This document shows, piece after piece, positions 486-31,795 of a DNA stretch of 35,895 nucleotides; position 1 is the stretch's first letter; every line of letters starts with the position of its first letter. The notes under the pieces are model-generated. The model searched no databases and had not been told where the DNA came from. It saw nothing but the letters and a program-made list of their open reading frames with translations. Both the position numbers and the translations under genes were made by a program. The stretch spans positions 1 to 35,895 of the forward strand of contig JACFMQ010000024.1 in assembly GCA_019455325.1 (NCBI GenBank), given 5' to 3'. The DNA is from Rhodocyclaceae bacterium. Lineage in GTDB: Bacteria > Pseudomonadota > Gammaproteobacteria > Burkholderiales > Rhodocyclaceae.

Positions 486-1259
486 ATGTCCTCGAAGCGA
501 ACCACCTTGCCGAGCCGGTCCCAGGCCATTCGCAAGCGCGCCGGGCGCCTGCCACGGCTGCCCTGGGTGGTTGCCGGCATCCTTGTGGCCGGCCTGCTGG
601 GCTGGCTCCTGTACCGCACGCCCGGTGCGCCGGCACCACGCACGGGGCCCGAGGTCGCGCAGGCGCATCCGGCCGGCCCACCCTGGCGTCACGGCCCAGC
701 CGATGCGCGCTTCACGCTGACGCTGTACGCCGACCTGGAGTGTCCGTTCTGCAAGGCCTACTACCCGACCCTGATGGCCTGGACCGATGCCCATCCCGAG
801 GCCAGCCTGCGGTGGCATCACCTGCCGCTGGCGATGCACGATCCCGAGGCGAGTCGGCTGGCCCGCGTGGCCGAGTGCGCAGGCGAAGCGCAAGGCCACG
901 AGGCCTTCTTCGGTGCCATCGCCTGGCTCTACCAAAACACCCGCGGCGATGGCCAGGGGCTGCCCACCGATCAGGCCTGGCCAGGTCTGACGACCGCCAT
1001 GCGGACCTGCCTGGACAGCGACCGCCCCGCAGCCATCGTCCGCGCGCAGGCCGACGAGGCCCTGCGCAGCGGCATCAACGCCACGCCCACCGTGCGGCTT
1101 GACGACGGCCTGACCGGGAAATCGCTGCTGCTGCACGGTCCGGTCGAGGGCGATGCGCTGCTGTCGGCGCTCGATCTTGTCTCCAGCGTGCCATCGCGTT
1201 CTGCGGAGCGCCCTCGTGCCGTTGATGCGACCGGCGAAGCGGCCGACGCGCCACGGTAA
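486..1259 (+). CDS. Membrane-anchored DsbA-like thioredoxin-fold protein of the ICE conjugation module
   Basis: The 257-residue protein has a basic N-terminus, one membrane segment at about residues 27-43 and a periplasmic thioredoxin-fold domain. The redox motif CPFC is at residues 86-89, and the likely cis-proline is P201 in NATPTV. The CPFC dipeptide and the long helical insertion place it with DsbA/BdbD-like oxidoreductases rather than classical thioredoxin. It probably oxidises or isomerises disulfides in the cysteine-rich periplasmic transfer proteins encoded further right (20977-23336). It follows the transfer ATPase by 12 bases. In the ICE family I expect the TIGR03757 gene soon after it, but here 19 kb of cargo intervenes. 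The tail after residue ~230 is low-complexity and may be disordered. Confidence 0.75.
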   Translation: MSSKRTTLPSRSQAIRKRAGRLPRLPWVVAGILVAGLLGWLLYRTPGAPAPRTGPEVAQAHPAGPPWRHGPADARFTLTLYADLECPFCKAYYPTLMAWTDAHPEASLRWHHLPLAMHDPEASRLARVAECAGEAQGHEAFFGAIAWLYQNTRGDGQGLPTDQAWPGLTTAMRTCLDSDRPAAIVRAQADEALRSGINATPTVRLDDGLTGKSLLLHGPVEGDALLSALDLVSSVPSRSAERPRAVDATGEAADAPR

Positions 1260-1398: not shown

Positions 1399-1429
1399 TT
1401 GACCTCAAGTTAACCTGAGGTTTTATCCT
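1399..1429 (+). promoter_or_regulatory. SoxR-box promoter for the clpP-like/gst/lysE/hydrolase operon
   Basis: The 18-bp palindrome CCTCAAGTTAACCTGAGG (1403-1420) differs at one base from the SoxR site of the E. coli soxS promoter as I remember it. A -35 element TTGACC (1399-1404) and a -10 like TATCCT (1424-1429) are separated by 19 bp. That over-long spacer is the hallmark of MerR-family promoters, in which the activator untwists the DNA. The operon's first start codon is 73 bases downstream. The soxR gene in this same window and its matching box (11291-11308) make the assignment strong. Confidence 0.88.
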
Positions 1430-1501
1430 GTCGGGGCCCGTGTTTCCAAGCAACGCGAGCGACCTCGACAGGCCATCAAGACATTCCCGGAGTTCCCATC
1501 C

Positions 1502-2101
1502 ATGCTCGCCAGCAATACAGAATCGCCCCCCGTCGCCCAGCCAGGAGGCGCCAGCACCTTTCTCGAAGAAAAAGCCTTTCGCGCACGCACGGTACTCGTG
1601 TTCGGGACCGTGACGGATGCGCTGGCCTCGGAGACCGTGCGCAAGCTCCTGGCACTGGACGCTGAGTCCAGCGCGCCGATCACCATGATCGTTTCCTCCC
1701 CGGGAGGCCACCTCGAATCGGGCGATGCGATCCATGATGTCGTGCGCTTCGTTTCCTCGCCCGTCAACATGGTGGGCACGGGGTGGGTCGGCAGCGCGGC
1801 CACCCATCTCTACCTGGGGGCGTCACGCGAGCGGCGCTTCTGCCTGCCCCAGACGCGTTTCCTGATCCACCAGCCGAGCGGCGGAGCCGGCGGACCGGCA
1901 AGCGATATCGCGATCCAGGCCAAGGAGATCATCAAGGCCCGGGAACGCATTGCCCAGGTCATCGCGCGCGAGACCGGCCAGCCCCTCGAACGCGTGATGC
2001 AGGACATCGAGCGCGATCTGTGGATGCCGGCCGAGGAAGCGGTTTCCTACGGGCTCGTGTCGCGCATCATCCAGCGCCGCGAGGAACTCATGGTCGCGTG
2101 A
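1502..2101 (+). CDS. ClpP-like protein with Thr in place of the catalytic Ser
   Basis: The 199-residue protein aligns by eye with ClpP over its whole length, including SSPGGH (65-70), [18 protein letters not shown] (111-128) and YGLV near the end. ClpP is the self-compartmentalised serine protease of Clp machines. Of the triad, His123 and Asp172 (in DIERD) are present, but the nucleophile motif normally read as GQAASMG is GSAATHL, so Thr101 sits at the Ser position. Either the protein is a non-canonical or inactive ClpP subunit that might assemble with the host ClpP, or threonine serves as nucleophile. It is the first gene after a SoxR-box promoter, so it is probably induced by redox-cycling compounds. 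The ATG at 1502 is the natural start. It is not the housekeeping clpP, because neither tig nor clpX is adjacent. Confidence 0.85.
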
Positions 2102-2169
2102 AGTACACCGGGCCTGACTCCTCGACACCTTCGAAGCCATCACACCCACAAGTTCCACCGGAACGACAC

Positions 2170-2790
2170 ATGCTCAAGATCCTCGGAAAGCGATCCTCCA
2201 TCAATGTCCGCAAGGTCCTGTGGGCATGCGCCGAGCTTGGCTTGCCGTTCCAGCAGGAAGACTGGGGCAACGGCTTTCGTGACGTGACCGAGGACGCCTT
2301 CAGGGCGCTCAATCCGAACGCAATGGTGCCCGTGCTGATCGACGGTGATTTCGTGCTGTGGGAGTCGAACACCATCCTGCGCTACCTCGCCAATCGCCAT
2401 GGCGGTGCGGCGCTGTACCCCCAGGACGCCATGGCACGCGCCCGCGTCGACCAGTGGATGGACTGGCAGGCGTCCGATCTCAACCGTGCGTGGAGCTACG
2501 CTTTCATGGCATTGGCAAGGCACTCGCCGGAGCACGCCGATGCCGCCGAGGTACAGCGGTCGCTGCAAGCCTGGCATCGGTTCATGCGCGTGCTGGATGG
2601 CCGGCTGGTGGAGACGGGTGCCTACGCCGCGGGCGACGCGTTCAGCCTGGCGGACATCGCCATTGGACTGTCCGTGCATCGCTGGTACCAGACGCCATTC
2701 GAACACGCTCGCCTGGAGGCAGTGGACGGCTACTACCGGCGCATCAAACAGCGCAATGCGTTCATCACGCATTGCATCGGCGTGCCGTGA
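2170..2790 (+). CDS. Glutathione S-transferase family protein
   Basis: The 206-residue protein has the two-domain layout of cytosolic GSTs. The N-terminal thioredoxin-like domain has [18 protein letters not shown], where a serine near residue 10 is the probable glutathione-activating residue, then the cis-proline motif MVPVLIDGD and [11 protein letters not shown] (the ESxAI-like glutathione contact). The all-helical C-terminal domain includes FSLADIAIG. It probably conjugates or reduces electrophilic substrates such as quinones with glutathione. It lies 68 bases after the ClpP-like gene on the same strand and is likely part of the SoxR-controlled operon, which fits a detoxification role. The substrate cannot be inferred. 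Confidence 0.9.
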
Positions 2791-2854
2791 TCCGGCACAC
2801 CGCGATCGACCTCGCTTTCCCTTCCTTTCCCATTACCGTGATGCCCATACGTCC

Positions 2855-3463
2855 ATGCGACCCGACTTGCTCCTTGCCTTCATGACCTATGCGTTCGTGA
2901 CTTCCATCACCCCCGGCCCCAACAACACCATGCTGCTCGCCTCGGGACTCAACCATGGGTTCGTTCGTAGCGTGCCGCACATCCTTGGCATCAGCCTCGG
3001 CTTCGCGGCGATGGTGTTCGGCGTGGGGGCGGGACTCGGGCGCCTGTTCCTCGCCTATCCCTTCCTGTACACCACCTTGCGCGTGGTCGGTGCGGTCTAC
3101 CTGCTCTGGCTCGCCTGGCAGATCGCCACGGCCCAGCCGCTGCAGGAAACCTCGGCGCCCGGCCGGCCATTCGGTTTCTGGAAGGCCGCCGCCTTCCAAT
3201 GGGTCAATCCCAAGGCATGGATCATGGCCATCGGGGCCATTGCCACCTACGCACCCGCCGAGGGCGGCGTGCTGGCGGTGATCGTCATCGCAGCGCTCTA
3301 TGCCGTCGTCAATGCGCCAAGCGTTGCCGTCTGGGCAGCCTTCGGCACGACGCTGCGTCGTTGGCTGACGGACAGGCGCCATTTGCGCATCTTCAACATC
3401 GCGATGGCCATCCTGCTCGTGCTGTCGCTGTATCCCCTGCTGTCCGGCCAGGCCTCGCAATGA
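2855..3463 (+). CDS. LysE/RhtB family exporter
   Basis: The 202-residue inner-membrane protein has about five to six hydrophobic segments. Near its N-terminus is the family signature TSITPGPNNTMLLASG, and later FQWVNPKAWIMAIGAI, which is typical of LysE/RhtB transporters that export amino acids or related small molecules by proton antiport. The ATG at 2855 gives a standard-length protein whose first helix begins at residue 3. Its stop codon overlaps the start of the following hydrolase (ATGA), so the two are translationally coupled. As part of a SoxR-box operon it may export a redox-stress product or a conjugate rather than an amino acid, but the substrate is unknown. Confidence 0.9.
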   Translation: MRPDLLLAFMTYAFVTSITPGPNNTMLLASGLNHGFVRSVPHILGISLGFAAMVFGVGAGLGRLFLAYPFLYTTLRVVGAVYLLWLAWQIATAQPLQETSAPGRPFGFWKAAAFQWVNPKAWIMAIGAIATYAPAEGGVLAVIVIAALYAVVNAPSVAVWAAFGTTLRRWLTDRRHLRIFNIAMAILLVLSLYPLLSGQASQ

Positions 3464-4152
3464 CACGATCCCCCCGTGCGAGCGACCTTCTCCTCGTGCA
3501 TGGCGCCTGGCACGGCGGCTGGTGCTGGGAGCGCGTGGCTCCACTGTTGACTGCTGCGGGACGGCGCGTGGTGACACCGACGCTGAGCGGCCTGGATGGC
3601 ACTCCTGGGCGCTTCGGACTGAGCCACCACGTCGACGACATCCTCGCCCATGCCGAGAACCTGGGAACGATCACGTTGGTCGGCCACAGCTATGCCGGAT
3701 TCCCGGCTTGCGCCGCCGCATCACGCCTGGGAGAAAGGATCGACCATCTGGTGCTCCTCGACGCGTTCCTTCCCGTCGACGGAGAGAAGTTGCTCGATCA
3801 CGCACCGCATCTCATCGACCGCTACGCCAATGCCATGGCCGCCGATCCGGACTGGCGGATCCCTCCCTTGCCCGCCGCGCAGTTCGGCATCTCCCCGGCC
3901 GACCAGGCATGGGTGGACATGCGCCTGAGGGGCCAGCCCGCACAGAGTTACTTCGAATGCATCCGCCTGAAAAGCCCGTTGTCCGCCTGCCGCAGGACCT
4001 ATGTCCGTTGCAGCCAGGCGCCCGGTGAGCTTCTCGCACGCTCCGTCTCACGGGCCAGGAACGACGGCTGGAACTATCTGCAACTGGACGCCCCGCATGA
4101 TGCGATGATCAGCCATCCGCAGGCCTTGGCCGATCTGCTGCTGGACATGTAA
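3460..4152 (+). CDS. Alpha/beta hydrolase (plant-esterase-like)
   Basis: The 230-residue alpha/beta-fold protein has the oxyanion-side motif VHGAWHGGWCW at residues 13-23, the nucleophile elbow GHSYAG with Ser77, and a late histidine His213 in DAPHDAM. The acid is probably Asp108 in LLDAFLP or a later residue. The motif spacing resembles the methyl-esterase/hydroxynitrile-lyase-like group that recurs in bacterial genomes as small ester hydrolases. It is the last gene of the SoxR-box operon and overlaps lysE by four bases. The converging lysR gene ends nine bases after its stop. The substrate is unknown. Confidence 0.85.
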   Translation: MTRSPRASDLLLVHGAWHGGWCWERVAPLLTAAGRRVVTPTLSGLDGTPGRFGLSHHVDDILAHAENLGTITLVGHSYAGFPACAAASRLGERIDHLVLLDAFLPVDGEKLLDHAPHLIDRYANAMAADPDWRIPPLPAAQFGISPADQAWVDMRLRGQPAQSYFECIRLKSPLSACRRTYVRCSQAPGELLARSVSRARNDGWNYLQLDAPHDAMISHPQALADLLLDM

Positions 4153-4161
4153 ACAGGCGGT

Positions 4162-5064
4162 CTACTCCTTGTCGGGTACCTGCCTGCTGGGTCGTTGCAA
4201 CCTTTCGACGAAGCTGCGCAGTTGCTCCGAATCCTCGGCATCCCTGCGCAGCAGGTAGGTCGTCAGTGGTGGCACCTCACCGGCCAGCGGACGCGAAGCG
4301 ACGTCCGGGTGCCGCCATAGGGACAGTTGCGGGCGGGTTGTGATCCCGAGGCCGTAGCCTGCTGCCACCAGCGCCATCAGCAAGTCATGGGACACCACCC
4401 GTTCGGCAATCCTGACCTCGCATTCCGCGGCACGCAGGAGCCGGTCGATTTGCCTGCTGCATCCTGCGCACGCTTCCGGATCGCAAAGCACCAGTGGATG
4501 GGACAGCAGTTCCATCAGGGAGAGTTCGGGATGAATCAGGGCGGGATGCCTCGCAGGCACCGCCACGACCAGGGGCTCGCTCCACGCTGGCGTCGCCAGC
4601 AATCCTTCACCTGGATGTTCCGCCTTGGCGAACCCCGCGTCATAGTCACCCTCTCTCAGGCCTTTCAACTGCTGGGCGAGCGTCACCTCGAACAGGCTGA
4701 TCTCGACCTCGGGCGACTCCTCGCGGCAGCGAGCCAGCAGGTCGCTCAGGTGCGACGGCGAAATTCCATCGGACAGCGCGATTCGCAGGATGCCCCGGTA
4801 TCCGGTTGCCGCAGCGCGTGCGCCGGCCCGGGCCTGCTCGGCGGCCGCCAGCACGCGCCGTGCTTCGTCAAGGAAGACCTGTCCAGCCCATGTGAGCCGG
4901 GTGCCATGGCTGTTGCGTTCGAACAGCCTGACGCCCAGGTCATCCTCCAGTTGACGAATGGATCGCGACAGCGGCGACTGCTCGATGTGAAGCCGTTCCG
5001 CCGCACGAGTAAAGCTGAGCTCTTCCGCCACGGCGATGAAGTATCGGATATGGCGCATCAGCAT
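4162..5064 (-). CDS. LysR-family transcriptional regulator at the end of the efflux operon
   Basis: The 300-residue protein has an N-terminal winged helix-turn-helix (FIAVAEELSFTRAAERLHIE, with PLSRSIRQLED following) and a periplasmic-binding-like effector domain from about residue 90. Its ATG lies two bases beyond the stop codon of the opmD-like gene, so it is probably the fifth gene of the mexGHI-opmD-type operon and itself under SoxR control. This is unusual, because most LysR regulators are transcribed divergently from their targets. Its effector domain resembles the stand-alone domain encoded at 28907 (shared features include IALSD near the start, a Cys-rich C..C.QID motif, VAAGYG and LTTY), so both may sense related ligands. 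ATG 5058 is an alternative start. Confidence 0.88.
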   Translation of the reverse strand: MLMRHIRYFIAVAEELSFTRAAERLHIEQSPLSRSIRQLEDDLGVRLFERNSHGTRLTWAGQVFLDEARRVLAAAEQARAGARAAATGYRGILRIALSDGISPSHLSDLLARCREESPEVEISLFEVTLAQQLKGLREGDYDAGFAKAEHPGEGLLATPAWSEPLVVAVPARHPALIHPELSLMELLSHPLVLCDPEACAGCSRQIDRLLRAAECEVRIAERVVSHDLLMALVAAGYGLGITTRPQLSLWRHPDVASRPLAGEVPPLTTYLLRRDAEDSEQLRSFVERLQRPSRQVPDKE

Positions 5065-5066
5065 CG

Positions 5067-6566
5067 CTACACTCCCGATCGATGCCTCGCAGCCTGGCGG
5101 CCGGCGCTGGAAGACAGGCTTTCCGCGTCCTCGGGACTCGGGACGTTCCAGCCCAAGGCCTTGTACAGGGCCACGATGCGTATCTGGGAGTCGACTTCCT
5201 GCTGTGCTATCTGCCGACGCAACTGGAACAGGGTACGCTGGTTCTCCAGCACGGCCTGGTAGCTTCCGGCCCCGGCGCGGTAGCGCCTGTCGGCGATGTC
5301 GAACGCGGCCTGGGCATGCCGCCCCGCCTGCAGCAGCGCGGCCAGTTGGCGTTGCTGTTCGGCCAGTCGGGTCACCGCGTTCTCGACTTCCTCCTGAGCG
5401 GTCAGCAACGCCTGTTCGTAGCGCGCCAGCGCGCCGTCCGACAGGGCCTCGGCACCGCGCAGGCGGGCGCGGACATTCCCCAGGCGCAGGGCGGGCCAGG
5501 ACACCGTGGGCGCGACCTGGAAGGCACGCGAGGCGGCGCTGCCGAAATCTCCGTCGCGCAACGCGAAGAAGCCGAGGAATCCACCCAGGTCGATGCGCGG
5601 ATAGAGGTCGGTCGTCGCTGCGCCGACATCCTCGACGCCGGCGGCGAGCAAGCGCTCGGCCTGCATGACGTCCGGGCGCGCCAGGATCATCCTGTTCACA
5701 TCGCCCAGCGGCACACGCGCCACCAGCGGCGCGGCTCGCACGGCGTCCGGTTCGGGCAGGCCGCCCTGGCCGGGCCGCTGCCCTGCGAGGACATCGAGCC
5801 GATGGCGGGTCTGCTGCAACGCCGCCGCCAGCGCTGGAAGCTCTGCCTCGCTGCGCAACAGGTTGGCCTGCGCATTCTCCACCTCCTCGGGCAGGCCGGC
5901 GCCGGCGTGCAGGCTGGCCTGGGCAAGCCGTACGGTTTCACGCCAGTTGTCTGCTTCCTGTCGTGTGACCTCCAGTCGCCGTCGATAGCCTTGCGCCTCG
6001 AACCAGGTGCGGGCCACCTCGGCGGCAATGCTCAGGCGTGTCATCTCCAGTTCCGCCTGGCTGGCCTCGGCCCGCGCCATCGCCGCCTGCTGCAGCCGGT
6101 CCAGGCGACCGAACAGGTCGATCTCCCATTGCACGTCGAAGCCAGCCTGCCAGGACTCGGACAATGTGCGCTGGCCGCCGTTGCTCGCCTGTTGCTGGAT
6201 GCCGCGGGTGTAGCCAGCACCGCTGGTCACGCCCGGCAGGCGATCGAGCCGACGCTCGTCGAAGATGGCGCGTGCCGCCAGCAGGTTGGCCTGGGCCTGG
6301 CGGATGTCATGGTTGCGCGCCAGCGCCGCCTCGATCCAGCGGCTGAGGCCCTCGTCGTCGAAGACCTGCCACCACGCGACTGGTGCGGCTTCGGCATCGG
6401 CGTCGGCGTCGGCGTCGGCTGCAGCGAACTCCGCGGCCTGCGGACTGGCCAGCACGATGGCAGGCGCTTGCGGCCGGACGTACTGCGGACCGACGGCGCA
6501 GCCCGCCAGCGCCGTGGCGAATGCCACAGCCGCCCAGGTACGGACGCATTGGGTGCTTGTGTTCAT
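5067..6566 (-). CDS. opmD: RND efflux outer-membrane lipoprotein (OpmD/NodT family)
   Basis: The 499-residue protein forms the trimeric outer-membrane exit duct of an RND pump. The N-terminus is a lipoprotein signal with lipobox ALAGC (lipidated Cys23), followed by GPQYVRP, which is typical of the OprM/NodT family. Two outer-membrane-efflux-protein repeats follow. A low-complexity ADADADADAE stretch near residues 50-60 is encoded by a hexanucleotide repeat. Its ATG overlaps the stop of the mexI-like gene (ATGA), and lysR follows within two bases. The name opmD rests on the gene order mexG-H-I-opmD plus SoxR control and not on a phylogeny; OprM-like proteins are hard to separate by sequence alone. 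Confidence 0.9.
   Translation of the reverse strand: MNTSTQCVRTWAAVAFATALAGCAVGPQYVRPQAPAIVLASPQAAEFAAADADADADAEAAPVAWWQVFDDEGLSRWIEAALARNHDIRQAQANLLAARAIFDERRLDRLPGVTSGAGYTRGIQQQASNGGQRTLSESWQAGFDVQWEIDLFGRLDRLQQAAMARAEASQAELEMTRLSIAAEVARTWFEAQGYRRRLEVTRQEADNWRETVRLAQASLHAGAGLPEEVENAQANLLRSEAELPALAAALQQTRHRLDVLAGQRPGQGGLPEPDAVRAAPLVARVPLGDVNRMILARPDVMQAERLLAAGVEDVGAATTDLYPRIDLGGFLGFFALRDGDFGSAASRAFQVAPTVSWPALRLGNVRARLRGAEALSDGALARYEQALLTAQEEVENAVTRLAEQQRQLAALLQAGRHAQAAFDIADRRYRAGAGSYQAVLENQRTLFQLRRQIAQQEVDSQIRIVALYKALGWNVPSPEDAESLSSSAGRQAARHRSGV
6396..6420. repeat. Hexanucleotide tandem repeat inside opmD
   Basis: About four copies of a GTCGGC-type unit encode the alternating Asp-Ala stretch just after the mature N-terminus of the OpmD-like lipoprotein. 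Changes in copy number would keep the frame and only change the linker length. Confidence 0.6.
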
Positions 6567-9500
6567 GTCGCCGCTCCTTCGGCCCGTGCGATCTCGGCCA
6601 GTTGCCGGCTGCGCGCGCTCTGCACACGGTGGTCGCGCGCCAGCAGGGTGTAGATCGTGGGCAGCACGAACAGGGTGAACAGCGTGCCCACCAGCATGCC
6701 GCAGACGATCACCGCCCCAAGGCCGAAGCGGCTGTTGGCACCCGCCCCGCTCGCGAACAGCAGCGGCACCACGCCGAAGGCCATGGCCCCGGTGGTCATC
6801 AACACCGGACGCAGGCGGATCTGGGCGGCACGGATGATCGCGGCGCGACGGTCCAGCCGTTCATGAACCTGCAGTTCGTTGGCGAACTCGACCATCAGGA
6901 TGCCGTGCTTGCTGATCAGCCCGATCAACGTCACCAGACCGATCTGGGTATAGATATTGAGCGTGGCCCAGCCCATTGCCAGCGGCAGCAGTGCGCCGCA
7001 GATGGACAAGGGCACGGTGATCAGGATGATCAGGGGATCGACCAGGCTCTCGTACTGCGCCGCCAGCACCAGGTAGATCACGACCAATGCGGCCAGGAAG
7101 GCGAACACCAGCGCGTTGCCCTCCTGCACGTACTGGCGCGACTCGGACTGCCAGTCGTGGCTGAAGCCGGGCGGCAGTTCGGCCACGACCTGTTCGAGGA
7201 AACCCACCGCCTGGCCCAGCGAGACACCCGGCGCGGGGATGGCCTGCAGGGTCGCCGCATTCTGCTGGTCGAACTGGTTCAGCCGGTTGGGCTCCACGCC
7301 CACGTCCAGGCGCACCACCGTGGACAGCGGCACCAGTTCGCCGCCCGCAGTGCGAACGTACTGCCGCGCCAGCGCCTGCGGGGTGAGGCGCTGCTCGCCC
7401 ACGCTCTGCGGGATCACGTCGTAGGAACGACCGAACAGCGCGAAGCGATTGACGTAGTTCTCGCCCACCAGCACACCCAGCGAATCGCCGATGTCCTGCA
7501 GGGCCAGCCCCAGGCTCGCGGCCTTGGCGCGGTCGATCGTGACCTGCACCACCGGGCTGTCGTACTCCAGGTCGCTGTCCACCACCACGAACAGGCCGCT
7601 GTCGCGGGCGCGTTGCTTGACCCCCTCCATGGCCTCGTACAGCACCGGATAGTCCTGCGCGCTGCGCAGCACCAGTTGCACCGGCAGGCCACCGCTGCCG
7701 CCCGGCAAGGGTGCGACCTGGAACACGAAGATGTCGCTGCCTACGATCTCGCCGACGGCGCCCTGTAGCTCGGCCACGATCTCCGGCTCCTTGCGCGTGC
7801 GCTCGGCCCAGTCGGACAGCATCAGGCCGCCGAAGCTGTTGGCCGGGCCGTCCGTGCCGTTGATGATCCACGTGCCGATCGTCTCGGGTACCTCGGACAT
7901 GACGCGGTGCAGTTCGTCGGCGAAGCGTTCCGCATAGTCCAGGCTGGCGTGCTGCGGGGACTTGACCGCGGCCAGGACGGCCGCCTGGTCTTCTGGCGGC
8001 GCCAGCTCGCGCTGCGGCAACTGGTACAGGAACGGCAGGCTGAGGCAGACCAGCAGGGCGAAGCCGCCGCTGAGCCAGCGATGCCGAAGCGACCCACCCA
8101 GCAGCCGTCCATAGCGATCCGCCAGGCCGCCGAAGACCCGTTCGGCCCATTGCGCCATGCGACCCTGCCCACCGTCCTGGTGGCTGGAATTCAGCAGCAG
8201 CGAACTCATCACCGGCGACAGCGTCAACGCCACCACGCCGGAGACGATCACCGCCCCGGCCAGGGTCAGGGCGAACTCGCGAAACAGCGCGCCGGTCAGC
8301 CCGCCCATCAGGCCGATAGGGGCATAGACGGCCGCCAGCGTCAGCGTCATGGCGATCACCGGCCCCGCGATCTCGCGCGCGCCGACCAGCGCCGCCGCCA
8401 CCGGCGACTTGCCTTCCTCGATGTGGCGATGCACGTTCTCGACCACCACGATGGCGTCATCCACCACCAACCCGATGGCCAGCACCATCGCCAGCAGGGT
8501 CAGCAGGTTGATGCTGAAGCCGAACGCCAGCATCAGTGCCGCCGCGCCCAGCATCGACAGCGGGATGGCGACCACCGGGATGACCACGCTGCGCAGCGAG
8601 CCCAGGCACAGCCAGATCACCAGCACCACGATCAGCACCGCTTCCAGCAGCGTCTTGACCACTTCCTGGATCGAGGCATCGATGAAGCGCGCGCGCTCGT
8701 AGACCATGGCGACCTTCACGCCCGGCGGCAAGGTCTTCTCGATGTCCGGCAGCAACTCGCGGATGCCATCCACGATGACCAGCGGGTTGCCCTTGGGCGT
8801 GGGGAACAGCGACAGGTAGACCGCCGGCTCGCCGTCCATCTGGCCGCTGGTCTGCGTCGAGGCTGCACCCAGTTCCACCGTGCCGACATCGCGCAGGCGC
8901 ACGAGGTCGTTGCCGTCCTGGCGGATGACCAGATCCCGGAATTCCTCCACGCTCGTCAGGTCGGAATTGACCCGCACATTGGCGATCACATACTGCCCAC
9001 GCACCTGTCCCGGCGCGGCCTGGTAGTTGTTGCGGCGGATCGCGGCGGCCACATCGGTGGCGGTCAGGCCGCGCCCGGCGAGGCGTTCGGCATCCAGCCA
9101 CAGCCGCATCGCCAGCTTCTGGCCGCCATCGACCTGCACCTTGGCCACGCCGTCGATGCCGGAAAACAGCGGCTCGACCACCCGCGACAGGTAGTCCGTC
9201 AGCTCTGGCGTGGACAGGCTGCCGGTGGAGAAGCCCACATAGGCCACCGCCGTCGAATCCCCCGCAGACAGCTCGATCACCGGATCATAGGCGCGCTCTG
9301 GCAGGCGGTAACGCACCTGGTTGACCTTGGCCATTGCCTCAGTCAACGCTTGCGTCGAGTCGCGGTTCAGTTCCATGCGCAGCGTGACCAGGCTGCGCCC
9401 CTGCGTCGACGAGGACGACAGGTAGTCGATGCCCTCGACCGAGGACACCGCCTGCGCGATCGGCTGGGTCACGAAGCCCTGCATCAGCTCGGCCGAGGCG

Positions 9501-9658
9501 CCCGGGTACTCGGTGCTGACCGTGATGGTGGAGGTTTCCAGGGTGGGGTATTGCCGGATCGGCAGCTTGCCCAGGGCGAACAGCCCCAGCAAGACAAGCA
9601 GGCTGCTGACCACCAGCGCCAGCACCGGACGGCGCACAAAGACGTCGGTGAACCTCAT
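6563..9658 (-). CDS. mexI: RND multidrug efflux permease (MexI type, HAE1 family)
   Basis: The 1031-residue inner-membrane pump is of standard HAE1 length. It starts MRFTDVFVRRPVLALVVSSL, has the first large periplasmic loop, and has the proton-relay motif GLVVDDAIVVVENV around residue 400 with the paired aspartates of the AcrB family. In the second half LIGLISKHGILMVEFANE carries the matching lysine. It moves hydrophobic compounds from the membrane or periplasm into the outer-membrane duct, driven by protons. ATGA overlaps join it to mexH upstream and opmD downstream. The next-best homologues would be MexF/AcrB-type pumps. The mexI name is inferred from the DoxX-family gene at the head of the operon and the SoxR box, a combination known from Pseudomonas aeruginosa, where it exports phenazine intermediates. 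Confidence 0.93.
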   Translation of the reverse strand: MRFTDVFVRRPVLALVVSSLLVLLGLFALGKLPIRQYPTLETSTITVSTEYPGASAELMQGFVTQPIAQAVSSVEGIDYLSSSSTQGRSLVTLRMELNRDSTQALTEAMAKVNQVRYRLPERAYDPVIELSAGDSTAVAYVGFSTGSLSTPELTDYLSRVVEPLFSGIDGVAKVQVDGGQKLAMRLWLDAERLAGRGLTATDVAAAIRRNNYQAAPGQVRGQYVIANVRVNSDLTSVEEFRDLVIRQDGNDLVRLRDVGTVELGAASTQTSGQMDGEPAVYLSLFPTPKGNPLVIVDGIRELLPDIEKTLPPGVKVAMVYERARFIDASIQEVVKTLLEAVLIVVLVIWLCLGSLRSVVIPVVAIPLSMLGAAALMLAFGFSINLLTLLAMVLAIGLVVDDAIVVVENVHRHIEEGKSPVAAALVGAREIAGPVIAMTLTLAAVYAPIGLMGGLTGALFREFALTLAGAVIVSGVVALTLSPVMSSLLLNSSHQDGGQGRMAQWAERVFGGLADRYGRLLGGSLRHRWLSGGFALLVCLSLPFLYQLPQRELAPPEDQAAVLAAVKSPQHASLDYAERFADELHRVMSEVPETIGTWIINGTDGPANSFGGLMLSDWAERTRKEPEIVAELQGAVGEIVGSDIFVFQVAPLPGGSGGLPVQLVLRSAQDYPVLYEAMEGVKQRARDSGLFVVVDSDLEYDSPVVQVTIDRAKAASLGLALQDIGDSLGVLVGENYVNRFALFGRSYDVIPQSVGEQRLTPQALARQYVRTAGGELVPLSTVVRLDVGVEPNRLNQFDQQNAATLQAIPAPGVSLGQAVGFLEQVVAELPPGFSHDWQSESRQYVQEGNALVFAFLAALVVIYLVLAAQYESLVDPLIILITVPLSICGALLPLAMGWATLNIYTQIGLVTLIGLISKHGILMVEFANELQVHERLDRRAAIIRAAQIRLRPVLMTTGAMAFGVVPLLFASGAGANSRFGLGAVIVCGMLVGTLFTLFVLPTIYTLLARDHRVQSARSRQLAEIARAEGAAT

Positions 9659-10761
9659 GTCGCCTGCTCCCGGGCCGTCTTCGCCTGGGGCGAGGCCGCG
9701 TCCCCGTGCAGCGCGTCGCGTGCAACCGGCTCGACCGGCATGCCGTCGCTGAGCTTGAGCTGGCCGGACACCACCACCCGGTCGCCTTCCTTCAGGCCGG
9801 AGACGATCTCGACGCGGCCATCCCAGCGCTCGCCCGTCTTCACCGCGACGCGGCGCACCGTCATTCCCTGCGGTTCTGCGGCTTCGGCGACGAACACCGT
9901 CTGGCCGTAGGCGGTGTAGGTCACCGCAGTTTCGGGCACCGCCAGCACCGGCGTGGGCTGCTCGCGCAGCACGCGCACATTGGCGAACATGCCGGCCTGC
10001 AGCGCGCCGTCGACGTTGGGCAGGCTGGCCTGCGCACGCAGCGTACGCGACGCGCCGATCAGCGGGTCGATGGCCGACACCTGCGCCTCGAAACGGCGCC
10101 CCGGCCAGGCATCGACCCGGATCTCGACCGGTTGGCCAGGCCGCACGTGCGGAACCGCCTGTTCGTCCAGCGCAAAGTTGACCTTGAGGGTCCCGGCATC
10201 GACCAGGCTGGCGATGCCATCTCCCGCAGCGAGGTACTGTCCCTCGTGCACGCGGCGAATGCCGATCGTGCCCGCGAACGGCGCACGGATCGCCTTCTGC
10301 GCGATGACCGCCTCGATCCCGCGCAGTTCGCCCTGCGCCATGTCGCGTGCAGCCTGCGCATGGTCGAGTTGCTCCTGCGTGGCCACCTTGTCGGCCATCA
10401 ACCGACGAGTGCGCGCCAGCACGGTCTCGGCATTGCGCAACTGTGCGCGCAGCCGAATACGCTCGGCCTGCTCGGGCGCATCGTTGAGCTGCACCAGCAG
10501 TTCCCCTTGCTTCACCCGCTGCCCGGAGGTGAACGCAATGCGCGTCACACGCCCCGCGGTTTCCGCAGCCAGTTCCACCTGCCGCGCTGCCTCCAGTTCG
10601 CCCACGCCGTGGAATGTACGCGGCGCCCGGGCGCGCTCTACCGGTGCCAACGCCACCTTGGTGGCCGGCCAGCCACCTGCGCCGTCCGCGCCCGATGAAC
10701 ATGCGGACAGGCCGATCACGCTCGCCAGTGCCAGGCCAAGAAAAGCAAAGCGGGCGGTCAT
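9655..10761 (-). CDS. mexH: RND efflux periplasmic adaptor (MexH type)
   Basis: The 368-residue membrane-fusion protein has a lipoprotein signal with lipobox GLSAC (Cys21). It then has the biotinyl-lipoyl-like half (GRVTRIAFTSGQRVKQGELL), a helical hairpin rich in RLRAQLRNAE and LDHAQAARDMAQGEL, the second lipoyl half (IRAPFAGTIGIR), a beta-barrel and a membrane-proximal domain ending in GLKEGDRVVVSG. It links the pump to the outer-membrane duct. The ATG at 10761 overlaps the mexG stop (ATGA) and its own stop overlaps the mexI start, so the operon is tightly coupled. Confidence 0.92.
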   Translation of the reverse strand: MTARFAFLGLALASVIGLSACSSGADGAGGWPATKVALAPVERARAPRTFHGVGELEAARQVELAAETAGRVTRIAFTSGQRVKQGELLVQLNDAPEQAERIRLRAQLRNAETVLARTRRLMADKVATQEQLDHAQAARDMAQGELRGIEAVIAQKAIRAPFAGTIGIRRVHEGQYLAAGDGIASLVDAGTLKVNFALDEQAVPHVRPGQPVEIRVDAWPGRRFEAQVSAIDPLIGASRTLRAQASLPNVDGALQAGMFANVRVLREQPTPVLAVPETAVTYTAYGQTVFVAEAAEPQGMTVRRVAVKTGERWDGRVEIVSGLKEGDRVVVSGQLKLSDGMPVEPVARDALHGDAASPQAKTAREQAT

Positions 10762-11177
10762 GCCTTGCCCTCCAACTGGCGGCGCAGGCGGCTGGCGATC
10801 GCCGCTGCGACCAGGCCACCGACGAGGCTGATGTGCTCCAGGGCCCAGAACATGGCCGTCTTGGCCTGCGCCTCCGGCAGTGCCCAGAAGTGGTGCACCA
10901 CGAGGATGGTCAGCAGCAGGAACACCGCCAGCGCGCCTGCCCCCAGCCAAAGCGCACGATCGAGTACCAACAGCACCGAGCCGCCCAGCAGCACCGCGAT
11001 GGTGGCGATGTTGAACAGCCAGTCCGGCTCCAGCCCGGCGGCGCGCATTTCGGCCAGCCCGCCCTGGAAGTCGAGCAGCTTGGCCAGCCCGGAAGACAGG
11101 AACACCACCGCCAGCAGGACGCGGGCGCCAATCCACAGCCAGCGGCTGTCCAATGTCTTGTCAACGATGTTTCGCAT
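10758..11177 (-). CDS. mexG: DoxX-family membrane protein (MexG type)
   Basis: The 139-residue protein has four membrane segments of the DoxX family. It begins MRNIVDKTLDSRWLWIGARV and continues with FLSSGLAKLLDFQGGLAEM and LEHISLVGGL. MexG of Pseudomonas aeruginosa is a DoxX-type inner-membrane protein at the head of mexGHI-opmD, and the order here is the same. Its role is thought to be to bind redox-active substrate or assist the pump. An in-frame upstream start exists at 11207, but 11177 gives the family's usual length. The SoxR-box promoter at 11282-11312 directs its transcription, leaving a leader of about 100 bases. Confidence 0.85.
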   Translation of the reverse strand: MRNIVDKTLDSRWLWIGARVLLAVVFLSSGLAKLLDFQGGLAEMRAAGLEPDWLFNIATIAVLLGGSVLLVLDRALWLGAGALAVFLLLTILVVHHFWALPEAQAKTAMFWALEHISLVGGLVAAAIASRLRRQLEGKA

Positions 11178-11281
11178 GCGTGTCCGCTCTCGAAGAAACG
11201 GCCGCACGGCTCAGCCGCGCGACCGGTGGGTTGGAGAAAGACTGGCCGCCTCGAAGGGACTTGCCAGGATCGATGCGGCGG

Positions 11282-11312
11282 ACTATAAAACCTCAAGTAA
11301 AGTTGAGGTCAA
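11282..11312 (-). promoter_or_regulatory. SoxR-box promoter for the mexGHI-opmD-lysR operon, between divergent soxR and mexG
   Basis: Reading leftward, a -35 TTGACC (11307-11312) and a -10 TATAGT (11282-11287) are separated by 19 bp and enclose an 18-bp near-palindrome (CCTCAAGTAAAGTTGAGG on the plus strand, 11291-11308). This is the same architecture as the site at 1399-1429, and both promoters share the TTGACCTCAA start and a TTTTAT before the -10. The box ends 7 bases before the soxR start codon, so SoxR binding probably also controls its own transcription. Confidence 0.9.
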
Positions 11313-11315: not shown

Positions 11316-11777
11316 ATGCAACCGAAGAAACCGATCGATTTTTCGCGCCTGCTCACCGTGGGGGAGGTGGCGCATCGCGCGGGCGTGCCGGTTTCCACCA
11401 TCCACTTCTACGAGTCGAAGGGACTGATCGCCAGCACGCGCAACGCCGGCAACCAGCGCCGGTTCGCCTCGGTCGTGTTGCGCTACATCGCCGTGATCAA
11501 GGTAGCCCAGCGCACGGGCATTCCCCTTGAGGAAATCAAGGAGGCACTCGGCCGCTATCCGCCGGGAAGCAAGCTCACCGCGGCCCAGTGGCGGGAACTG
11601 TCCACACGCTGGCGCGCCAATCTGGACGAACGCATCACCAAGCTGACGCGGCTGCGCGACGAACTGGACAGTTGCATTGGCTGTGGCTGCCTGTCGCTGG
11701 ACGAATGCCCGTTGCGCAATCCCCAGGACGCACTGGGGGCGGAAGGGCCCGGTCCCCGCATCCTCGAACGGCCGTGA
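11316..11777 (+). CDS. soxR: Redox-sensing transcriptional activator SoxR
   Basis: The 153-residue MerR-family protein has an N-terminal winged helix ([20 protein letters not shown] and then YESKGLI), the SoxR-like GNQRRF, a dimerisation helix and the [2Fe-2S] cluster motif [12 protein letters not shown] with Cys120, Cys123, Cys125 and Cys131. The spacing and the following PLRNP are those of Escherichia coli SoxR, which has 154 residues. Oxidation of the cluster by redox-cycling drugs such as phenazines or viologens switches target promoters on. No soxS is present, as in non-enteric bacteria, where SoxR acts directly on efflux genes. It is divergent from mexG, and both SoxR boxes in the cargo are its likely targets. 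Confidence 0.95.
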
Positions 11778-11887
11778 CGACCCCAGCTTTTCCCGGCGGG
11801 CCGATGCGAAGCGCCTTCGCGGGGCCCGGCAAGGACCTGATGCATTGCCAGCGGGGTAGCCTGACCGGCCTGTCGATGCGAATGGGC

Positions 11888-11906
11888 AATAATGATTGTC
11901 ATTAAC
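11888..11906 (+). promoter_or_regulatory. Putative Fur box before the AraC regulator
   Basis: AATAATGATTGTCATTAAC matches the 19-bp consensus GATAATGATAATCATTATC at 15 positions by direct comparison. It ends one base before ATG 11907 and 18 bases before ATG 11925. It suggests iron-dependent repression by Fur of the regulator of this siderophore-uptake block. Confidence 0.75.
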
Positions 11907-11924
11907 ATGTGCGGCAGGGTGACG

Positions 11925-12779: not shown

Positions 12780-12842
12780 ACTGTACCGGCGAGCACCAGA
12801 AGAATACCGGCCAGCGCCATTGGCAGCGCAGCGCGATGCCTA

Positions 12843-12878
12843 GACTCAACGCAATTGATTCCCAGTTGCTTTTGAGTC
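12843..12878. promoter_or_regulatory. Nested inverted repeat (stem-loop) just before the TonB receptor start
   Basis: The outer arms GACTCAA (12843-12849) and TTGAGTC (12872-12878) enclose the inner arms GCAATTG (12851-12857) and CAGTTGC (12863-12869). Together they can form a 14-pair stem, including one G-T pair, with a 5-base loop and a small internal bulge. The structure ends six bases before the start codon and could be an operator for the AraC regulator or an RNA hairpin that limits ribosome access. There is no T-run, so it is not a typical terminator. Confidence 0.6.
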
Positions 12879-12884
12879 CTTGCG

Positions 12885-14996: not shown

Positions 14997-14997
14997 C

Positions 14998-17072: not shown

Positions 17073-17073
17073 A

Positions 17074-19799: not shown

Positions 19800-19804
19800 C
19801 GTCG

Positions 19805-20542: not shown

Positions 20543-20980
20543 ATGGACTCTCGCGCTGTTCCTCATGCCGCTCGCGCTCGCCCAGCATGGTTTGCTGCGG
20601 GGGTTGCCATCCTGGTGTTGGCCACCCGCGCCGCCGCTGCGGAAGTATGGGTCGTTACCGACTCGCATCATCCGGTCCTTGGCCAGGCTGACCGACACCT
20701 CATCTTGGACGCGGGCGCGGTGCTCGAAGCGGAACTGGCCGCCAGCCTGCCCGCCGATCAAGAACGCGCCAGCGCCATCGTCCGGCAACGCCTGAAGCAG
20801 GGCGGTACAGAACTGCAGCGAAGGATCGGCGCCGCCTACCAAGGCATTGCCGATGCCTGGAGCCTTGGCGTCACCAAGGTTCCGGCCATCGTGGTGGATC
20901 GCCGATACGTGGTCTATGGCGAAACGGACGTGGCCCGTGCGGTTGCCCGCATCGACCAATACCGGAAGACGCAGCCATGA
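20543..20980 (+). CDS. ICE conjugation protein, TIGR03757 (PFL_4709) family
   Basis: The 145-residue exported protein has a signal peptide ending near RAAAAEV (about residue 33) and a mature part with VTKVPAIVVDRRYVVYGETD, which is thioredoxin-like in pattern and typical of this family and of TrbC-like proteins. It belongs to the periplasmic part of the type-G mating apparatus. I chose ATG 20543 because longer in-frame versions lack a signal peptide at the N-terminus. The stop overlaps the next start (ATGA). It is the first conjugation gene after the 19-kb cargo. The ~200 bases before it hold no recognisable gene. Confidence 0.85.
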   Translation: MDSRAVPHAARARPAWFAAGVAILVLATRAAAAEVWVVTDSHHPVLGQADRHLILDAGAVLEAELAASLPADQERASAIVRQRLKQGGTELQRRIGAAYQGIADAWSLGVTKVPAIVVDRRYVVYGETDVARAVARIDQYRKTQP

Positions 20981-21927
20981 CGAGGCGTCCGTTCGCGCCG
21001 TCCCGGCGCCAGCGGTTGGCCGTCGCAGCGCTGCTGCTGGGGTGTTCCGCATCGTCCTTTGCACTGAACACCGCCACCATCGTGGCCTCCACCCTGTCAC
21101 CGGATTGCCTGGAATACCGCGTCACCGGCATCTGCTATTGGCTCTATTGCACCTGGACGGGATGCACCGTACGCACCTCGGTCAAGGTCCGCCACTACAT
21201 CCCGGATGCCGTGGTGTCGAGCTACTCGAACACCGGCGAGAACCCTTGGGTCGAGGTGCGGGCGATGAGCCTGCCGAACCCGACCGCGAAGGCCGGTGGC
21301 GACGGCACCACCAACGAGGATCACGAGAACAACCTGGCGAAGTTCAAGAACGCCGACGTCATCGGCCATCCCGGTGGCCATGTGTTCAGCCAGTTCGCCA
21401 GCGCGTCCGGCTACACCTGCGAGGGCGCCGGCACCGCCTTCATGCCCTATCTGCTGAGCACGCTCGACACGCTGGCATGGCGCTACAACATCCCCGAGGC
21501 GCTGTATCCGGAAGCACTGATTCCCGGCCGGCGCGAGATCGGCACGCGCACGGGCCTGAATCTCTGGGGCAACGTCTATCCGCGTGGCGGCTTCCTGCAC
21601 CAGGTGGATGACCACAAGGCCGCAGCCGTGGTCGCCCAGCGCGCGGGTGACATCGTGACGCGCCGCAACCAGATCCACGTCTACCAACCGCTGCTCGCCA
21701 GTTCGCGCGATGGCTACTGGCCGGCCGGCGCCCTGATGGAAACCGATGCCGCCACGGGCAAGTGGCAGGAGCTGACCCCAACGCTGTCCAGCAGTTGCGC
21801 GGTATTCCCCCACGGCAATGCCAAGGTGCAGGCCCGGCAAGGCGACTACGCCTGGGCATTGTGGCGCCCTTATAGCTGCTGCCAGCGCCGCGGCCAGGTG
21901 TTCCTCGGCAGCGTCGATTTCCTGTGA
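20977..21927 (+). CDS. ICE conjugation protein, TIGR03756 (PFL_4710, TraU-like) family
   Basis: The 316-residue secreted protein has a signal peptide ending at SSFALN. The mature part has many cysteines (CLEYRVTGICYWLYCTWTGC near residues 45-64 and YSCCQRRGQVFLGSVDFL at the end), a pattern shared with TraU of the F plasmid, which helps assemble the conjugative pilus. The cysteines are likely to be disulfide-bonded, which gives a use for the DsbA-like protein at 486. It is translationally coupled to the TIGR03757 gene by a four-base overlap and is followed by the TIGR03755 gene within 11 bases. Confidence 0.88.
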   Translation: MTRRPFAPSRRQRLAVAALLLGCSASSFALNTATIVASTLSPDCLEYRVTGICYWLYCTWTGCTVRTSVKVRHYIPDAVVSSYSNTGENPWVEVRAMSLPNPTAKAGGDGTTNEDHENNLAKFKNADVIGHPGGHVFSQFASASGYTCEGAGTAFMPYLLSTLDTLAWRYNIPEALYPEALIPGRREIGTRTGLNLWGNVYPRGGFLHQVDDHKAAAVVAQRAGDIVTRRNQIHVYQPLLASSRDGYWPAGALMETDAATGKWQELTPTLSSSCAVFPHGNAKVQARQGDYAWALWRPYSCCQRRGQVFLGSVDFL

Positions 21928-21938
21928 GGCCCGATGCC

Positions 21939-23336
21939 ATGACGACTCCATCGCCGAATGCCCGTCGATTTCTTTGCGTCGCATTGGCCGTTGTCGCAGC
22001 GCTGAGCTACTCCAGCGCCGGGGCGCAGACCAGCGTCAACGAGTACGGCGTCCAGCATCAAGGCAGCGTGATCGGCGACGACGTGCTCTACAGCATTGGG
22101 GGCGGCCGCGCGGTGTCCATGAGCGGTGCGGCCAACATGCACTCCATCGGCGTTGGCGTCGGCTGGAACAGCAACCTGATCTGTGGCGACATGAGCATCA
22201 CCACCACGCTGCAGAACCAGTTGAACGGCATCACCAACGGCTTCCAGGCCATCATGTCCTCGGTGATCCAGAACGCCACCGCTGCCGTGGCGTCGCTGCC
22301 CGCGTTGATCATCCAGCGCGCCGATCCAGGGCTGTACAACCTGTTGACCAATGGGGTGCTGCAAGCCAGGTTGGATTTCGATCGCAGCAAGCTGACCTGC
22401 CGTGCCATCGCCAACCGCATGGCCGACATGGCGGGTGGGCAGCTCGGCTGGGACCAGCTCGCCGAAGGCATGGCGCTGAAGCAGGCCGTCGCGAGCACAG
22501 ATGCGGTCTCGGCGATCGACGACGCCGAGGCGAACCGTGGCAACAATGGCGTTCCTTGGGTCGGCGGAGACAACGCCGGCGGCGCGGGCCAACGTCCGGT
22601 GCGCGTGGTCGGCGACGTGACCCGCGCCGGCTACAACCTGCTCAACGGCCGTGGCGTCGGCGATGCCAGTTCGATTCCGCAAGCCAGTTGCGGCGGCAAC
22701 CTGGCATGCCAGACCTGGAGTTCGCCCGATGCCGCCGCGGCCTGGGCCGTTCGCGTGCTGGGCGAGCAGGAACAGCGCACCTGCGATGCATGCACCAAGA
22801 CCGTCACCACGCCGGGCGTTGGCCTGACCCCGCTGATCCAGGAGGAATACGAGGACAAGCTGCAGGCCCTGCAGGAACTGGTCGCCGGCAGCCGTCCAAC
22901 CACGGCGCAGAACCTGCAGGCTGCGAGCAGCGCGTCGCTGCCCATCACCCGTGGGGTGATCGAGGCCCTTCGCGACGAGACGGACCAGGACATCCTGGCT
23001 CGGCGCCTGGCCTCGGAGGTCGCGCTGGCCAGCGTGCTGGAGAAGGCGCTGCTGCTGCAACGCACGCTGCTGACCGGGCGCAAGGAGCCCAACGTGGCCG
23101 CCAACGAACTGGCCCAGAAGGCCGTCACCCACGAAAGCGACATCCTCGATCGCGAGATTCACAACCTGAAGACCGAACTGGAACTGCGCCGGGAACTGGC
23201 CGGCAACTCGCCGATGGCGATCATCCAGCGCCACAGCACCCGCGCCGCCGGTGCGCGTGGCATCTACGAAGGCGACCCGGTACGCAATCGGGTCGATGAA
23301 CTGCAGCGGCCGCCGTCCGGCGGAAGCCATCCATGA
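21939..23336 (+). CDS. ICE conjugation protein, TIGR03755 (PFL_4711) family
   Basis: The 465-residue exported protein has a signal peptide (cleavage near SSAGAQT, about residue 30). A Gly/Ser-rich N-terminal part and NLICGDMSITTTLQNQLNGI follow, then a long alpha-helical C-terminal half with EYEDKLQALQELVAG and heptad-like segments near residues 300-440. Family members are periplasmic components of the ICEclc-type mating channel; their exact role is unknown. ATG 21939 puts the signal peptide at the N-terminus; a GTG at 21924 overlaps the previous stop and is less likely. It overlaps the next gene by four bases. Confidence 0.87.
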   Translation: MTTPSPNARRFLCVALAVVAALSYSSAGAQTSVNEYGVQHQGSVIGDDVLYSIGGGRAVSMSGAANMHSIGVGVGWNSNLICGDMSITTTLQNQLNGITNGFQAIMSSVIQNATAAVASLPALIIQRADPGLYNLLTNGVLQARLDFDRSKLTCRAIANRMADMAGGQLGWDQLAEGMALKQAVASTDAVSAIDDAEANRGNNGVPWVGGDNAGGAGQRPVRVVGDVTRAGYNLLNGRGVGDASSIPQASCGGNLACQTWSSPDAAAAWAVRVLGEQEQRTCDACTKTVTTPGVGLTPLIQEEYEDKLQALQELVAGSRPTTAQNLQAASSASLPITRGVIEALRDETDQDILARRLASEVALASVLEKALLLQRTLLTGRKEPNVAANELAQKAVTHESDILDREIHNLKTELELRRELAGNSPMAIIQRHSTRAAGARGIYEGDPVRNRVDELQRPPSGGSHP

Positions 23337-31483: not shown

Positions 31484-31721
31484 GATCCCAACTCCATGAA
31501 AGCGAGTTGAGTGCCATGTTTCCCATCGGACCCCGGCTCCTCCAGCAACAATGCGGCAGGGGAAGTTCGCGCATTGTTTGGGCCACTTTTTGTACCAGTT
31601 TGGGCCGGCCGTCAGTGGATTTCGCTGGACGTCACTGGAACGGATTTTCTGGAAAAGCCGAACCGTGACAATGACTTGCAACACTCCATGGACGTCCTTG
31701 GAACACCATGGAAAGTCGAAG
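31484..31721. other. Integrase upstream and attachment region with spaced TGGA repeats
   Basis: No gene lies here; the integrase promoter is expected. Two clusters of TGGA occur at 31616/31626/31636/31650 and 31689/31699/31709/31722, mostly 10 bp apart. Within them TGGACGTCACTGGAAC (31626-31641) is repeated as TGGACGTCCTTGGAAC (31689-31704), 63 bp away. GTTTGGGCC also occurs twice (31576-31584, 31598-31606). These are candidate arm-type sites for integrase, excisionase or a promoter regulator. Confidence 0.5.
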
Positions 31722-31741
31722 TGGAGCGGGCGAAGGGAGTC
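31722..31741. mobile_element. Probable ICE right-end attachment site (core in tRNA-Gly 3' end)
   Basis: This position combines the 3' end of tRNA-Gly with the integrase on the inner side and chromosomal genes on the outer side. The partner copy at the other end of the element lies outside this window, so the exact core length cannot be read here. Confidence 0.65.
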
Positions 31742-31795
31742 GAACCCTCGTCATCAGCTTGGGAAGCTGAGGTAATGCCGTTATACGACGCCCGC
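31722..31795 (-). tRNA. tRNA-Gly (anticodon CCC), ICE attachment target
   Basis: The 74-base gene on the minus strand has a 7-bp acceptor stem GCGGGCG/CGCCCGC, an anticodon stem TCAGC/GCTGA around the loop TTCCCAA (anticodon CCC), a T-arm AGGG-TTCGACT-CCCT, discriminator T73 (as in tRNA-Gly) and an encoded CCA (complement of 31722-31724). The 3' end faces the integrase. Elements of the ICEclc family recombine at about the last 18 bases of tRNA-Gly, so the right-hand attachment core is probably within 31722-31745; the tRNA remains intact after insertion. Confidence 0.95.

Follow-up and report, generated by a model that had tools for sequence, protein, structure and literature searches.

SoxR regulons vary between bacteria and, to our knowledge, it is not well understood how they gain new targets. 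A case in point is contig JACFMQ010000024.1 of a Rhodocyclaceae genome of 4.46 Mb (GCA_019455325.1), which was analysed as one entire stretch of 35,895 bases, here called the window. Within an integrative and conjugative element (ICE) at a tRNA-Gly gene, it carries soxR and two convergent operons behind similar promoters: a pump operon, doxX-mexHI-opmD-lysR, and a clpP operon that encodes a ClpP-type protease, a glutathione S-transferase (GST), a LysE-type exporter and an alpha/beta hydrolase (Table 1). We consider it likely that the element holds a complete SoxR circuit, made up of the sensor, the two promoters and both operons, which redox-active compounds would switch on jointly.

In both promoters an 18-bp box lies between the -35 and a TATnnT -10 with a spacer of 19 bp. 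This architecture (TTGACC, box, TAT-type -10), which had been proposed in an initial annotation of this DNA, was confirmed by direct reading at both sites; the two promoters, described there as near-identical, agree at 25 of the 28 positions compared, and soxR does lie beside the second box, its start being 7 bp past it. The full promoter pattern occurs twice in the window, at sites 1 and 2, and in none of 100 shuffles, whereas the box halves alone, at up to three mismatches, are no rarer than chance (10 found, 10.26 expected) and were dropped as evidence; sites 1 and 2 are the sole boxes with 0-1 mismatches among those ten. The significance therefore sits in the full promoter and not in the bare box. 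A reversed pattern was run as a control beside the box and promoter searches. No third full promoter was found in the 4.46-Mb genome at up to three mismatches (none in the control either), and no bare box elsewhere in the genome at up to one mismatch (control, one per strand). Among 399 genomes of the order, source genome included, the promoter pattern with at most one mismatch is present in five, and in two copies solely in the source genome.

The sensor itself has a four-cysteine motif near its C terminus that aligns to the motif of the solved SoxR 2zhg, and that has the [2Fe-2S] role in SoxR proteins. This SoxR is the sole match over the TIGR01950 cut-off in the genome, with four weaker MerR-type matches below. 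The initial observation is thus confirmed and turns out stronger than first stated, the sensor and both promoters being, by these searches, the only ones found in the genome. In a survey of 100 relatives SoxR passes the cut-off in four, namely one in the family (G046, where the match contains one stop) and three in other families of the order, and in none of the six of the same genus; by this distribution the window SoxR is imported. A SoxR match without annotation is also present in Acinetobacter (L140). Sensor, pump and new target would travel as a single cargo into a lineage mostly without SoxR, and a whole stress response could pass between bacteria in one step.

The arrangement of soxR and doxX-mexHI-opmD under promoter 2 is a known one, and the pump operon is a known SoxR target of the Pseudomonas aeruginosa type according to extracts of two reports (PMC10269722, PMC7546422). 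Family profile matches bear out the genes that the initial annotation had assigned to both operons, the DoxX gene being of the mexG type. DoxX, adaptor, RND pump and outer-membrane channel form one gene run. An Azospirillum homologue of the RND pump (75% identity in DNA) is labelled as MexW/MexI family; the window subunit, with 1218.2 bits, falls short of the 1763 bits required by the nearest equivalog model, NF007133, and for this reason it is called MexI-like rather than MexI.

It is the operon under promoter 1 that is unfamiliar as a SoxR target, as had been claimed. A partial literature search found no such operon, neither a SoxR-controlled clpP-gst-lysE operon nor an ICE-borne SoxR regulon, and an earlier report is possible. 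The clpP operon as a SoxR target, together with the exchange of its promoter, would be the new elements of this system. Its ClpP is a paralogue of housekeeping ClpP, with which the catalytic Ser, His and Asp positions are aligned. Matches to this protein at E <= 1e-90 occur in one of the 399 genomes of the order, namely the source genome, and at E <= 1e-60 in 11 of 369 genomes of the class, source included, the other ten being at most 64% identical.

We compared the clpP upstream region with that of the best 80 of 342 ClpP relatives in named genomes (loci L010 onward). A SoxR box precedes clpP in the two closest, from Pseudorhodoferax aquiterrae (L010, ClpP 93% identical) and Xenophilus sp. 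(L011, 89%). At up to two mismatches and over the 400 bp before clpP, none of the others has a box, a result that covers all but L085, whose upstream DNA is almost entirely lacking; the reversed pattern gave none. With L010 and L011 the window becomes homologous precisely where the -35 starts, at base 1399, and in 24 loci (L012-L035) the longest match to the window starts within clpP, at 1548-1559. In the alignment of the three sequences the promoter has 25 invariant columns out of 32, compared with 19 out of 54 for the leader (Fisher p, 1.1e-4) and 31 out of 103 for the upstream region (1.8e-6), the final 18 columns before the start codon (11 invariant) being kept apart. The box upstream of clpP thus persists in two further genera, and it is better conserved than the sequence around it.

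The initial annotation had described a self-contained module, which holds in part, and had proposed a search for the pair of boxes in related elements. Both clpP and a pump are boxed in Pseudorhodoferax and Xenophilus. Neither clpP nor soxR nor the pump was found in any of nine stretches fetched from related ICEs. Pseudorhodoferax yielded just two SoxR promoters at up to three mismatches, one ahead of clpP and the other between soxR and a pump of the mexHI type (soxR 70% and RND 57% identical to the window); its SoxR-promoter clpP (L010:4597-7034) stands between a different integrase and a tRNA-Gly(CCC), the same kind of tRNA as in the window. In Xenophilus clpP-lysE is convergent with opmD-mexIH-doxX, with boxes before clpP and before doxX, and the place of the window soxR holds a stub only; the SoxR over the cut-off is encoded on a different contig, where a third box and an open reading frame (ORF) with an MFS domain adjoin it, and a fourth, weak site in the genome has three mismatches. 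The description as self-contained therefore suits the window, with its own sensor and two promoters, but not Xenophilus, where SoxR lies on a different contig from both boxed operons. No ICE backbone genes were found in the Xenophilus stretches searched. Bare boxes with up to two mismatches are little commoner in the 80 ClpP loci than the reversed pattern (20 vs 12) and were dropped as evidence, so the L011 clpP box counts only for its place, its -35 and its -10.

Elsewhere among the relatives clpP stands behind other promoters. The pattern TGTCACR-N16-CGTY precedes it in 22 of the 80 loci (within L012-L043), and these are every clpP-strand occurrence in the 1.46 Mb of fetched DNA, with 0.01 expected in shuffled upstream regions. 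The promoter of ECF41, an extracytoplasmic function (ECF) sigma factor, is given as TGTCACA-n16-CGTC in the portion of PMC3426412 consulted; in 21 of the 22 sites G replaces the final A of the ECF41 -35, and nine end in T. Sigma70_r2 was detected in 23 of 29 divergent upstream ORFs scanned, which had been chosen out of 63. The first sigma protein, the one studied in detail, scores far under the SigJ/SigX4-type cut-off (81.8 vs 323.25 bits), and the divergent proteins are accordingly called ECF sigma factors and not ECF41 members. The ClpP proteases behind such promoters may be a target group separate from the described ECF41 targets. The presence of soxR in a genome was rejected as a predictor of a SoxR-type clpP: soxR over the cut-off is present in eight of the 12 genomes or records tested, and four of these eight have an ECF-type clpP promoter.

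Among the best 30 of 171 matching plasmid records, one (NZ_CP049142.1) has a ClpP more than 90% identical. On plasmid pPniHBP1_1 of Pseudomonas nitroreducens (L136) and at the Klebsiella plasmid loci L139, L168 and L169, clpP, lysE and gst lie beside a pyridoxal phosphate (PLP)-dependent regulator, with doxX between this regulator and clpP in three of the four (not in L169); the GntR and aminotransferase domains of the regulator come from scans at two of these four loci. This set, sometimes with a nitrilase gene, recurs on large Klebsiella and Pseudomonas plasmids. At Klebsiella L137 and L138 neither the regulator nor doxX is annotated beside clpP. All five Klebsiella plasmid loci lack a box near clpP at up to two mismatches; at three mismatches, L137 and L138 each have one box 368 bp upstream of clpP.

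Plasmid pPniHBP1_1 is of special interest for the history of the promoter. A stretch that starts at doxX, takes in soxR and AraC and reaches the first part of the TonB receptor is 96% identical to the window, and its Dsb-like gene is 93% identical. The Dsb-like gene is followed by a 134-bp piece of clpP, a PLP-dependent regulator with a GntR domain in divergent orientation, another doxX and the full clpP-gst-lysE-hydrolase operon. Homology to the window clpP starts at 1489, beyond the SoxR promoter. The interval from hydrolase to doxX lacks lysR and the greater part of the pump operon. The halves of the one box left contain a single mismatch, and SoxR ends in a longer tail in place of its last residues, with the cysteine motif intact. 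This SoxR may still be active. We read the plasmid as having undergone an exchange of promoter and, with it, a loss of SoxR targets. The 134-bp piece was rejected as a relic of a window-type clpP, being 91.8% identical to the plasmid's own clpP vs 90.3% to that of the window.

In a tree built from 60 ClpP rows (the window, housekeeping ClpP, four plasmid copies and 54 of the 80 loci) the gene of pPniHBP1_1 groups with the three of the SoxR type, with a Shimodaira-Hasegawa-like approximate likelihood ratio (SH-aLRT) of 95, and ECF-type rows flank the SoxR-type group on both sides. The control of clpP looks to have been exchanged among these relatives and, because the group of four lies between ECF-type rows, the SoxR promoter before clpP probably arose once by exchange; the direction of the exchange is presumed, since the tree does not fix it. 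The promoter of the new target can be compared with those of differently controlled relatives, and therefore the acquisition of a target by promoter exchange becomes directly testable.

The circuit could work as follows. SoxR would sit on both 19-bp-spacer promoters and would probably be kept low by binding box 2 beside its own start; self-repression with activation of the divergent pump is supposed for promoter 2 because the mfsA-soxR pair of Stenotrophomonas maltophilia behaves in this way. Phenazines, quinones or viologens would oxidise the [2Fe-2S] cluster, whereupon the over-long spacers would be distorted and the two convergent operons come on. The pump operon would then pump redox-active compounds out, and the clpP operon would handle damage and adducts by GST conjugation, hydrolysis and LysE-type export, the second ClpP removing damaged proteins, maybe together with housekeeping ClpP. 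In one lineage the clpP promoter would have been swapped for a SoxR promoter, which brought operon and pump under one sensor. Binding of SoxR, induction and operon transcription at both promoters are predicted from sequence, as are the roles given here to the four proteins of the clpP operon. In this sense the two operons constitute a putative regulon. This scheme suggests a role of the second ClpP and GST in the tolerance of phenazine-like compounds. Other two-ClpP systems exist, and by analogy we would guess at mixed rings of ICE ClpP and housekeeping ClpP. It is a tentative extension, which we hold to be rather doubtful, that the cargo is a transferable single-sensor response in which promoter exchange put a mobile ClpP/GST/LysE operon under SoxR, and in which the extra ClpP joins or replaces host ClpP subunits and so re-tunes host proteolysis under redox-active antibiotics.

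Several findings weigh against joint control of both operons by SoxR. The case which the initial annotation had named as speaking against its proposal, an operon kept and a box lost in a related element, occurs once: the clpP-gst-lysE-hydrolase operon of pPniHBP1_1 is without a SoxR box, which shows that the operon does not need SoxR in every element. The SoxR-type clpP loci known to us number three, and they differ in content, with clpP alone of the four operon genes in L010 and clpP-lysE in L011. The L011 clpP box has two mismatches, in its left half, and the box before mexG in that genome is weaker still (13/18 to the consensus). The partition into promoter and leader was set after the alignment had been seen and with three sequences, and the order in which the promoters changed is drawn from a single quick protein tree in which 20 of 55 inner branches are open and the outgroup is long-branched. 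In a rival reading only promoter 2 would be live, box 1 being a fossil or weak and the clpP operon being read from another promoter. The boxless operon of pPniHBP1_1, the half-site symmetry of box 1, broken at one of nine pairs, and the fact that clpP of relatives does well behind other promoters would all fit. However, promoter 1 departs from the E. coli consensus at just one of 18 positions, and no other non-coding part is as well conserved in the comparison with L010 and L011. No sigma-70 promoter with a spacer of 16-18 bp turned up in 1200-1501, in a promoter and terminator scan of little informative value, and we regard a dead box 1 as unlikely.

The two operons could also be separate cargo, each independently under SoxR and without a joint function, which we find possible though considerably less probable than a common response. 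Gene contents vary between elements, and in L010 the SoxR-promoter clpP, between its integrase and tRNA-Gly, has no gst, lysE, hydrolase or pump beside it; yet Xenophilus has the same convergent pair in stretches where the search found no ICE backbone genes, and the only two SoxR promoters found in Pseudorhodoferax again serve clpP and a pump. That the contig was misplaced in the genome by a binning error, in which case host and regulon would be unrelated, is very improbable: the window is indeed one whole contig that ends inside the ICE, within TraC, but the flank beyond tRNA-Gly is 84% identical to a same-genus genome (G001) over nearly its whole length and 81% to another (G006) over the first 1.9 kb, with a related ICE gene 11 kb away in the latter. 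A complete SoxR circuit carried by the ICE is the reading that we prefer.

Table 1. Promoter elements, genes and ICE landmarks of the window
Feature	Position	Strand	Evidence or remark
-35 TTGACC, clpP operon	1399..1404	+	Read directly; homology with L010 and L011 starts at base 1399
SoxR box 1, CCTCAAGTTAACCTGAGG	1403..1420	+	17/18 vs E. coli consensus quoted in PMC4411124 (extract)
-10 TATCCT, clpP operon	1424..1429	+	19-bp spacer from -35
ClpP-type serine protease	1502..2101	+	PF00574 1.6e-55; NF009205 232.4 bits, cut-off 228
Glutathione S-transferase	2170..2790	+	PF13417, PF02798; nearest solved sequence 4kdu, 3.8e-83
LysE-type exporter	2855..3463	+	PF01810 1.3e-18
Alpha/beta hydrolase	3460..4152	+	PF12697 9.5e-21; nearest solved sequences hydroxynitrile lyases, esterases
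LysR-family regulator, last pump-operon gene	4162..5064	-	PF03466, PF00126
Outer-membrane channel (OpmD-like)	5067..6566	-	PF02321 1.1e-44
RND pump (MexI-like)	6563..9658	-	PF00873 6e-274; NF033617 over cut-off
Periplasmic adaptor (MexH-like)	9655..10761	-	TIGR01730 261.4 bits, over cut-off
DoxX-family membrane protein (MexG-like), first pump-operon gene	10758..11177	-	PF07681 3.1e-16
-10 TATAGT, pump operon	11282..11287	-	19-bp spacer from -35
SoxR box 2, CCTCAACTTTACTTGAGG	11291..11308	-	Common to pump operon and soxR; 7 bp from soxR start
-35 TTGACC, pump operon	11307..11312	-	Read directly
SoxR, four-cysteine motif	11316..11777	+	TIGR01950 210.1 bits, cut-off 116.9; aligns to 2zhg, 3.9e-57
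ICE conjugation ATPase, C-terminal end (TraC_PFL_4706), cut by contig end	3..473	+	TIGR03744 6.8e-82, positions 747-892 of 892
DsbA-like thioredoxin protein, left cargo border	486..1259	+	PF13462; after TraC in 6/9 related stretches
ICE backbone TIGR03757, TIGR03756, TIGR03755, right cargo border	20543..23336	+	All three over cut-off
Integrase beside probable attachment tRNA	29558..31684	-	NF007246 7.2e-57, under cut-off
tRNA-Gly(CCC), probable integration site	31722..31795	-	Same-genus genomes match from here on

That the system is ICE-borne, as initially proposed, is borne out by the TraC end, the TIGR03755-03757 genes over their cut-offs, the integrase with tRNA-Gly and the same-genus flank; because of these, and of the related ICE gene in G006, the element is called an ICE. 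Nothing convincing was found in a search for direct repeats around the integrase. The cargo between the DsbA-like gene and TIGR03757 amounts to 19 kb, and further frames lie between TIGR03755 and the integrase. The gap from Dsb to TIGR03757 is about 1 kb in six of the nine related stretches; in the two that hold other cargo here it measures 5.2 and 16.8 kb, and the ninth stops short of Dsb. By this comparison the SoxR module is part of the variable cargo that occupies this spot.

Beside the module, an AraC gene precedes genes for a TonB-dependent receptor, a PepSY protein, a cupin and an MFS transporter, and a Fur-box-like site at the AraC gene start (11888-11906) has three mismatches to a 19-bp consensus, with none in 100 shuffles; this AraC-TonB-MFS stretch looks like cargo for iron or xenosiderophore uptake. 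After the cargo, at 18423-20338, there is a CoA-transferase family III gene and a next frame that appears ATPase-like by eye. In Xenophilus such a CoA-transferase/ATPase-like pair comes directly after the pump operon, as if 11318-18372, from soxR to MFS, were absent.

The kind of system described here, a SoxR regulon on the one hand and ICE cargo on the other, is known. We take the window ICE to belong to the clc / PFGI-1 type (models TIGR03744 and TIGR03755-03757), and like those ICEs it has conjugation genes, an integrase, a tRNA-Gly and cargo between a Dsb-like gene and TIGR03757; unlike in the related ICE stretches, this cargo is a redox-response circuit. Relatives of the clpP carry an ECF sigma gene in divergent orientation, and their promoter, TGTCACR-N16-CGTY, comes close to that of ECF41, but the ECF41 targets described in the extract of PMC3426412 are decarboxylase, oxidoreductase and epimerase genes, whereas that of the clpP relatives is a protease. 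At the tested mfsA-soxR promoter of S. maltophilia, SoxR keeps its own gene repressed and turns on the divergently transcribed pump gene, and promoter 2 resembles that promoter in the divergent soxR and efflux genes, the single box, TTGACC, the 19-bp spacer and the position of the box 7 bp before the soxR ATG; the S. maltophilia pump is of the MFS type, however, and the part of the report consulted mentions no clpP-type target (PMC4411124). The SoxR regulon of P. aeruginosa comprises six genes, including mexGHI-opmD, and has no SoxS, according to an extract of PMC7546422. As in that species, a SoxR-type promoter, here predicted from sequence, precedes a MexGHI-OpmD-like pump, and unlike in it, as far as that extract goes, soxR of the window adjoins the pump, everything is ICE cargo and a clpP operon stands behind the same promoter (PMC7546422).

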